Part shown: positions 1-1,537 of the stretch, one piece after another | Position numbering within the stretch: the first letter of the stretch is position 1 | Layout: every line of letters begins with the position of its first letter | DNA from: Nitrospinota bacterium | Lineage (GTDB): Bacteria; JADFOP01 | Reading direction: 5' to 3' | Length of the DNA: 33,947 nucleotides | Assembly: GCA_022562795.1 (NCBI GenBank) | Contig: JADFOP010000021.1 | Coordinates: 1-33,947, forward strand | The notes under the pieces: model-generated | What the model saw: only the letters and a program-made list of their open reading frames with translations | The model's database searches: none | Told to the model about the DNA's origin: nothing | Position numbers and translations under genes: made by a program

Positions 1-1103
1 TGCGCCATGCCGGCCTCTGGCGCAATCTTCGCGGGCGATTGTGCGGAGTTGAACATCTCCTCAAATACGGTTTTTGCCATATTCGAGCTCAGGGTCCCGG
101 ATTCGATCAGCTGAGACAACTCGCGGTAATGTTGCGGATGAATCTTGACGTCTTGAATGCGCGTTCCAGTTGCGTTGAGCAACCTCGACAACTCTCCCAA
201 TACCCAGTTGCTTACAAATTTGGCGAACTGCGCTTGCGGCTCCCGATCAAACCGGCTGTCGACGACTGCGGCTTCAAAGTGGTCTGCCATTTCCTTCGAG
301 GATGTCAATAGGCTGGCGTCGTATTCAGGCAATCTGAACTCCTCGACGAATCGATACATGCTCTTTGTAGCAAACTCACCAGGAGGTATCTTTTCGTAGA
401 CGAGTTTCTGCCAGCCCGTTAGACCTGACGGATCAGGGATAGTCGGTCTTGGCAGGCGATCCTCTTTTCTGCTGAGAGACGCTATCATCTTATTTGTAGA
501 CTTCGATGAAAGGGTTCTATCACGTGTCTTCCGCACATGACGGGTTAATTCTTCATATCCCTCGATATACGCTTCATTCGGCGTAAATAGCCCTTCCTGG
601 TATTTGAAATCGGCATATATGTCCCTCACCGCGTTGACCGTTTCAGAATCGTAGCGGTCTCTTATAATGACGTTTAACTCGATATTTTCTTTCAACCCGC
701 CCCCAGTTAAATTTGAAGAGCCAATGATAGCTGTCGCAAAGGAACCCCTTTTCAATAAGTAGAGCTTAGGATGAAAGGTGGGGCCAACATCTTTCAGCGG
801 GTCCCTGAAGCAAAAGAAAGACAACTTATCCGTCTCGCCTGCTGTTTCTCTCAGCCACCTCAAGGCCTTCCCATCGGTTATCGAGAAATCAAGTCCCAAA
901 AGGAACTCCAAATGGACGCCCCTTTCGAGACACCTCAACAGTTCCTTCTTAAGGAGCACTAGGCCAGAATGCTTAACAAAGGCCACGGCAAATCTGGCTT
1001 CGGTTGCTTTCCTCAACTCCGCCAGTAGAACATCGACGAGAGGCTGTTTAATGTTCTCTGAAAACAAATGTCTCATTTCACCTACCTGCGGGCAAAGGGC
1101 CAT
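1..1103 (-). CDS. PLD-like nuclease domain fused in frame to GatB C-terminal region (partial, runs off left edge)
   Basis: Reading the minus strand from an ATG at 1103 (good GGGGAGG site) or at 1076, the frame stays open to base 1. Counting from 1076, residues 1-236 look like a phospholipase-D-superfamily domain: an N-terminal helix/strand pair, then FHPKLY (101-106) and GSSNLTGGG (119-127), which form the HxK...N/GG catalytic signature. Residues 240-358 instead match the end of GatB, subunit B of Asp/Glu-tRNA amidotransferase: RFVEEF, LPEYDASLLTSS, KEMADHFEAAV, then the helical tRNA-binding tail (NWVLGELSRLLN, SGTLSSNMAKTVFEEM). The switch lies near base 360. Residues 221-238 (GWQKLVYEKIPPGEFATK) recall the start of alkyltransferase-like DNA-binding domains, so the original PLD gene may have continued differently. 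A PLD-GatB fusion is not an architecture I know. It may be a real rearrangement or an assembly join; the frame itself is certain. Confidence 0.72.
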   Translation of the reverse strand, partial: MALCPQVGEMRHLFSENIKQPLVDVLLAELRKATEARFAVAFVKHSGLVLLKKELLRCLERGVHLEFLLGLDFSITDGKALRWLRETAGETDKLSFFCFRDPLKDVGPTFHPKLYLLKRGSFATAIIGSSNLTGGGLKENIELNVIIRDRYDSETVNAVRDIYADFKYQEGLFTPNEAYIEGYEELTRHVRKTRDRTLSSKSTNKMIASLSRKEDRLPRPTIPDPSGLTGWQKLVYEKIPPGEFATKSMYRFVEEFRLPEYDASLLTSSKEMADHFEAAVVDSRFDREPQAQFAKFVSNWVLGELSRLLNATGTRIQDVKIHPQHYRELSQLIESGTLSSNMAKTVFEEMFNSAQSPAKIAPEAGMA

Positions 1104-1270: not shown

Positions 1271-1537
1271 TTATGCCTCCTTATCCAAAACTCCTTCTTC
1301 TATGCTAGGATCTACTCCATCCCATTTTATGTACAATAAGGCTATGACAGAGGGACTTATGTATCCGTTGGTCTTATCCAAGGTTTCTTCTAACCCACAA
1401 TCAAGGGATAGAAAATAGGAAGCTCTCCCCCCTGAGACCCAGCAAAGGATTTCTCCAGCCTTATCACTGGAGAAATATCCATTTCTTATACATCCTGCAG
1501 GGATTTTGTAACAGAAGGGAATTTCGGGGTGGTTCAC
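1271..1537 (-). CDS. Hypothetical 88-residue protein
   Basis: GTG start at 1537 with GAGAGG about nine bases upstream. The GTG overlaps the stop of the preceding remnant as GTGA, and the stop lies inside the ribosome binding region of the next small gene, so this looks like the middle of a tightly packed operon. The protein has no transmembrane stretch and no motif I recognise; it starts NHPEIPFCYKIPAGC and ends in an acidic tail (DPSIEEGVLDKEA). Three cysteines are scattered without a metal-binding pattern. The base composition is lower in GC than the core genes to the right, matching the PLD chimera downstream. Gene status rests on the coupling and start signals. Confidence 0.5.
   Translation of the reverse strand: MNHPEIPFCYKIPAGCIRNGYFSSDKAGEILCWVSGGRASYFLSLDCGLEETLDKTNGYISPSVIALLYIKWDGVDPSIEEGVLDKEA

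Follow-up and report, generated by a model that had tools for sequence, protein, structure and literature searches.

The apparent PLD nuclease-GatB fusion at the end of a Nitrospinota contig is most likely not a real feature

The stretch of DNA analysed here (the window; 33,947 nucleotides) covers the whole of one contig of a Nitrospinota bacterium (G000:C21:1-33947), taken from an assembly that comprises 84 contigs and 2.15 Mb. At its beginning lies one minus-strand open reading frame with an ATG start, which runs without a stop or a frameshift, passes in a single frame from a PLDc_2 domain into GatB, and is still open where the contig ends at base 3 (Table 1). The initial annotation had described this uninterrupted frame correctly, albeit with 358 instead of 367 codons, and the two motifs that it had reported as intact, FHPKLY and GSSNLTGGG, are both found in the open frame; HxK and GSSN can also be seen in the alignment with homologous proteins. 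The Pfam GatB_YqeY match (residues 294-366, E 1.2e-17) spans profile positions 13-85 of 148 and is partial because the contig ends there.

Table 1. Features at the beginning of the window.
Feature	Window positions	Strand	Basis
Chimeric frame of 367 codons, without a stop up to the contig end	3..1103	-	ORF reading
PLD-like nuclease domain, residues 52-156, HPK and GSSN motifs	636..950	-	Pfam PLDc_2, E 1.5e-9; PADLOC type IV REase and DrmC models
DpnI_C winged helix, first half, residues 228-257, LTGWQKLVYEKIPPGEFATKSMYRFVEEFR; second half missing	333..422	-	Homolog alignment
Junction, eight codons (YRFVEEFR) compatible with either family	333..356	-	Alignments, base matches
Fragment of a Chloroflexota-type GatB helical domain (residues 258-367) with an extra loop of about 8 residues; YqeY end beyond contig	3..332	-	Pfam, insert, tree, identity
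Low-GC contig end	1..1600		G+C profile

The neighbors of the open frame are housekeeping genes of the atp, par, dnaA and gyr groups. The G+C content of the contig end is about 43-55%, while that of the following 5 kb is about 52-70%, mostly over 57%, and the two halves of the open frame differ in their GC3 values (0.52 vs. 0.66, p = 0.02). No other copy of bases 1-1660 is present within the assembly. Positions 1104-1658 form a low-GC stretch that separates the chimeric frame from a lipoprotein-like reading frame with 65% G+C; this stretch contains only one doubtful open reading frame of 88 codons (1271-1537, minus strand).

Residues 1-257 fit the PLD-winged-helix (PLD plus DpnI_C) family of type IV restriction endonucleases. 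Residues 10-257 are most similar to one protein each of Candidatus Methanoperedenaceae and Candidatus Aenigmatarchaeota (42-46% identity) and to four others recovered in searches of Chloroflexota genomes; taken together, the archaeal and Chloroflexota proteins are 34-46% identical to residues 9-257. The matches stop at residues 256-261, and the homologous proteins go on into the remainder of the winged helix. Six homologs, five of them apparently intact, possess the full winged helix and read YPxN..KVRQILQQLRDLG at the point where our open frame turns into GatB (five were included in the alignment; the sixth, the L171 reading frame, was added separately). Each of them has the same layout: a PLD domain, a variable linker, and the signature GWQKLVYEK(L/I)P.G.F.T..(M/I)Y.(F/Y)E.EF...YP(E/Q)N..I..K(V/I)RQ.LQ.L...G. 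The Pfam DpnI_C model (Dam-replacing HTH) was called on the last part of all six homologs vs. no match in the open frame itself. The latter follows the winged helix through MYRFVEEFR (residues 249-257), where the match ends, with 61% identity to the L058 winged helix over 28 residues; the open frame lacks the rest of the domain and with it the conserved KVRQ.LQ helix. A search for the missing half in another reading frame nearby was negative, as no remnant of it is present in the window. Hence, the join splits the winged helix in the middle, since the homologs continue this fold exactly where the open frame switches. The preceding IPPGEFATK stretch, which had been thought to look interrupted, is ordinary sequence for the first part of a DpnI-type winged helix and is conserved in the homologs. 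As judged from these alignments, the first 257 codons are a truncated gene for a predicted PLD-winged-helix (type IV, modification-dependent) restriction endonuclease.

No DpnI_C match was found elsewhere in the assembly, a weak negative because the control genomes gave no match either. When 392 genomes around that of the archaeal homolog were searched for PLD-winged-helix proteins, that homolog alone was returned. The reading frame of the Methanoperedenaceae homolog (L057:4253-5106) is disturbed near its 5' end and might represent a pseudogene or a sequencing error. Four apparently intact restriction-type genes of this family came from the Chloroflexota-genome searches (L153:1399-2607, L171:1390-2274, L151:1495-2355, L152:1387-2319).

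The initial annotation had placed the join near base 360; the switch from PLD to GatB is present in the sequence, but we locate it to the eight codons for residues 250-257 (TATCGATTCGTCGAGGAGTTCAGA on the gene strand), a stretch acceptable to both families. On the PLD side the cut falls inside the winged-helix fold, and on the GatB side near the beginning of the helical domain. The GatB piece takes up the terminal 332 bases of the contig. Eighteen of the 24 junction bases match the PLD-winged-helix gene of L057, and up to 16 match gatB genes. Known PLD-winged-helix and gatB relatives have at most 14 of 24 bases in common at the anchored overlap; the mean number of shared bases is 9.0 there vs. 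6.3 at random in-frame windows, which lends modest support only.

The frame can be read securely as GatB from about residue 249 onward (RF..E(Y/F).LPEYDA..LT). Residues 226-245 lack the GatB consensus save for W231 and P240-E243; with this consensus essentially missing upstream, the open frame therefore contains no GatB linker or cradle, and the catalytic GatB_N (cradle) domain is likewise absent from it. A phmmer hint that GatB homology might reach back to about residue 190 was rejected, as this stretch aligns with the PLD-winged-helix homologs. An additional loop in the tail (VVDSRFDREPQAQFAK) recurs in the GatB proteins of SAR202, Dehalococcoidia and other Chloroflexota, and the best identity of the tail is to GatB proteins of the Chloroflexota type (52-56%). 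In a phylogenetic tree it falls inside a Chloroflexota GatB clade of 30 rows (support 98/98), apart from the GatB proteins of a genome of the same genus (G001) and of one of the same class (G002); since this tree is short of columns, only the broad Chloroflexota placement is used here. The tail is just 37% identical to the GatB protein of G001, which carries a complete gatB gene, and 36% identical to that of G002, despite the fact that the GatA proteins of the host genome and of G001 are 85% identical. Because of this discrepancy, the tail is, on sequence comparison, foreign to the host lineage and of the Chloroflexota type.

The initial annotation had proposed looking for a second, complete gatB gene in the genome. 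We found no GatB_N domain across the assembly, although gatC and gatA are both present on contig C69; the genome's own gatB gene thus probably lies in an assembly gap. Beyond gatC-gatA, contig C69 continues for about 870 bases to its end (L140:4577-5445) with 49% G+C and without gatB. In G001, gatA and gatB are several kb apart with unrelated sequence between them, and in G002 they are adjacent.

The two origins of the open frame, the cut in the middle of a domain, the foreign type of the GatB piece and its position at the contig end were all directly observed, and they bear out the suggestion, already made in the initial annotation, that the join might be a rearrangement or an assembly artefact. 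We consider it likely that the apparent fusion is a chimeric contig end, that is, a misjoin made during short-read metagenome assembly. We infer from its 84 contigs that the assembly is of this type, for which chimeric contigs are common (PMC8171044). The assembler would have walked from a PLD-winged-helix gene into a Chloroflexota-type gatB gene, and the two genes would have been joined in register over about eight codons whose product, YRFVEEFR, is compatible with either family; we thereby assume that the two true parents share an identical k-mer. The preservation of the frame without a stop has to be counted against a misjoin; a short stretch common to both genes would keep the frame across the join, whether an assembler or recombination had made the passage between them. 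The low-GC contig end may derive from a Chloroflexota bacterium that lived in the same community, since both halves resemble Chloroflexota genes.

The principal alternative is a real rearrangement in the cell: a PLD-winged-helix gene would have become linked to a foreign gatB fragment, through illegitimate recombination or the transfer of a foreign segment, and a broken, probably inactive gene would have been left behind. Restriction genes are often acquired horizontally; the region is low in G+C, and searches of G001 and G002 returned only GatB as a match and no PLD protein, all of which would fit such an event. However, it demands that the foreign gatB fragment be placed exactly at the contig end, and the product, with its winged helix destroyed, is seen in no relative. 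We therefore regard a rearrangement as unlikely; a misjoin is the likelier event, and it was, we infer, the assembler and not an event in the cell that produced the join.

A functional protein was also envisaged in the initial annotation, namely a nuclease that borrows the GatB tail and could act on tRNA. In such an enzyme the GatB helical/YqeY tail would have replaced the second half of the winged helix, and the PLD nuclease would bind and cut tRNA. The PLD motifs are intact, the frame is kept, the join enters GatB near where its helical domain begins, the one feature of its position that speaks for a genuine module, and the helical and YqeY domains of GatB are known to anchor tRNA (PMC4027206). 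Yet the cut on the PLD side lies within the winged-helix fold, a position not expected in a working fusion, and the protein's own DNA-reading domain is destroyed; the tail is foreign, and the YqeY domain lies outside the contig. Nor was a second example encountered: no PLD-GatB frame is present among the matches listed for about 1,170 genomes (partly overlapping sets of 386 genomes sampled broadly, 393 from a Chloroflexota class and 400 from the whole phylum; best matches only in the larger searches), none is present among the plasmid, phage or viral-contig matches, and a scan of viral contigs found no relative. If true, the fusion would add a tRNA-directed effector of new architecture, but the evidence points the opposite way, and we judge such an enzyme to be highly improbable. 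That the tail is the genome's own gatB gene, truncated and misjoined, is scarcely credible: no other GatB piece exists in the assembly, but the tail is far less similar to the same-genus GatB than GatA is to its counterpart, and it groups with Chloroflexota, away from G001 and G002.

The PLD-GatB fusion is thus most likely not a real feature; such a protein probably does not exist, and no product is to be expected in nature. A stop-free open frame at a contig end can mimic a new fusion enzyme, and three checks exposed it here: whether homologs finish the fold past the join, how the kinship of each half compares with the genome's own relatives, and how far the join lies from the contig end.

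The PLD-winged-helix class has been described as N6-methyladenine-dependent type IV restriction enzymes, of which two genes have been cloned, one from an Anaerolineaceae bacterium and one from a Chloroflexi bacterium (PMC11037411). Like the endonucleases Aba4572I and CbaI, by their published description (PMC11037411), the open frame begins with a single PLD domain, carrying HxK and GSSN, which is followed by a DpnI-type winged helix; in contrast to them, its winged helix ends after the first half, so that a complete DpnI_C domain is lacking, and continues as GatB. The PLD domain with these two motifs also resembles the PADLOC DrmC and mREase_IV PLD proteins, but there is no helicase, and no DISARM gene was found in the neighboring reading frames. 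Residues 258-367 correspond to the helical domain, with its loop insert, of the Chloroflexota-type GatB subunit of the Asp-tRNA(Asn)/Glu-tRNA(Gln) amidotransferase; unlike GatB, the open frame has no catalytic N-terminal domain, and its C-terminal YqeY end would lie outside the contig.
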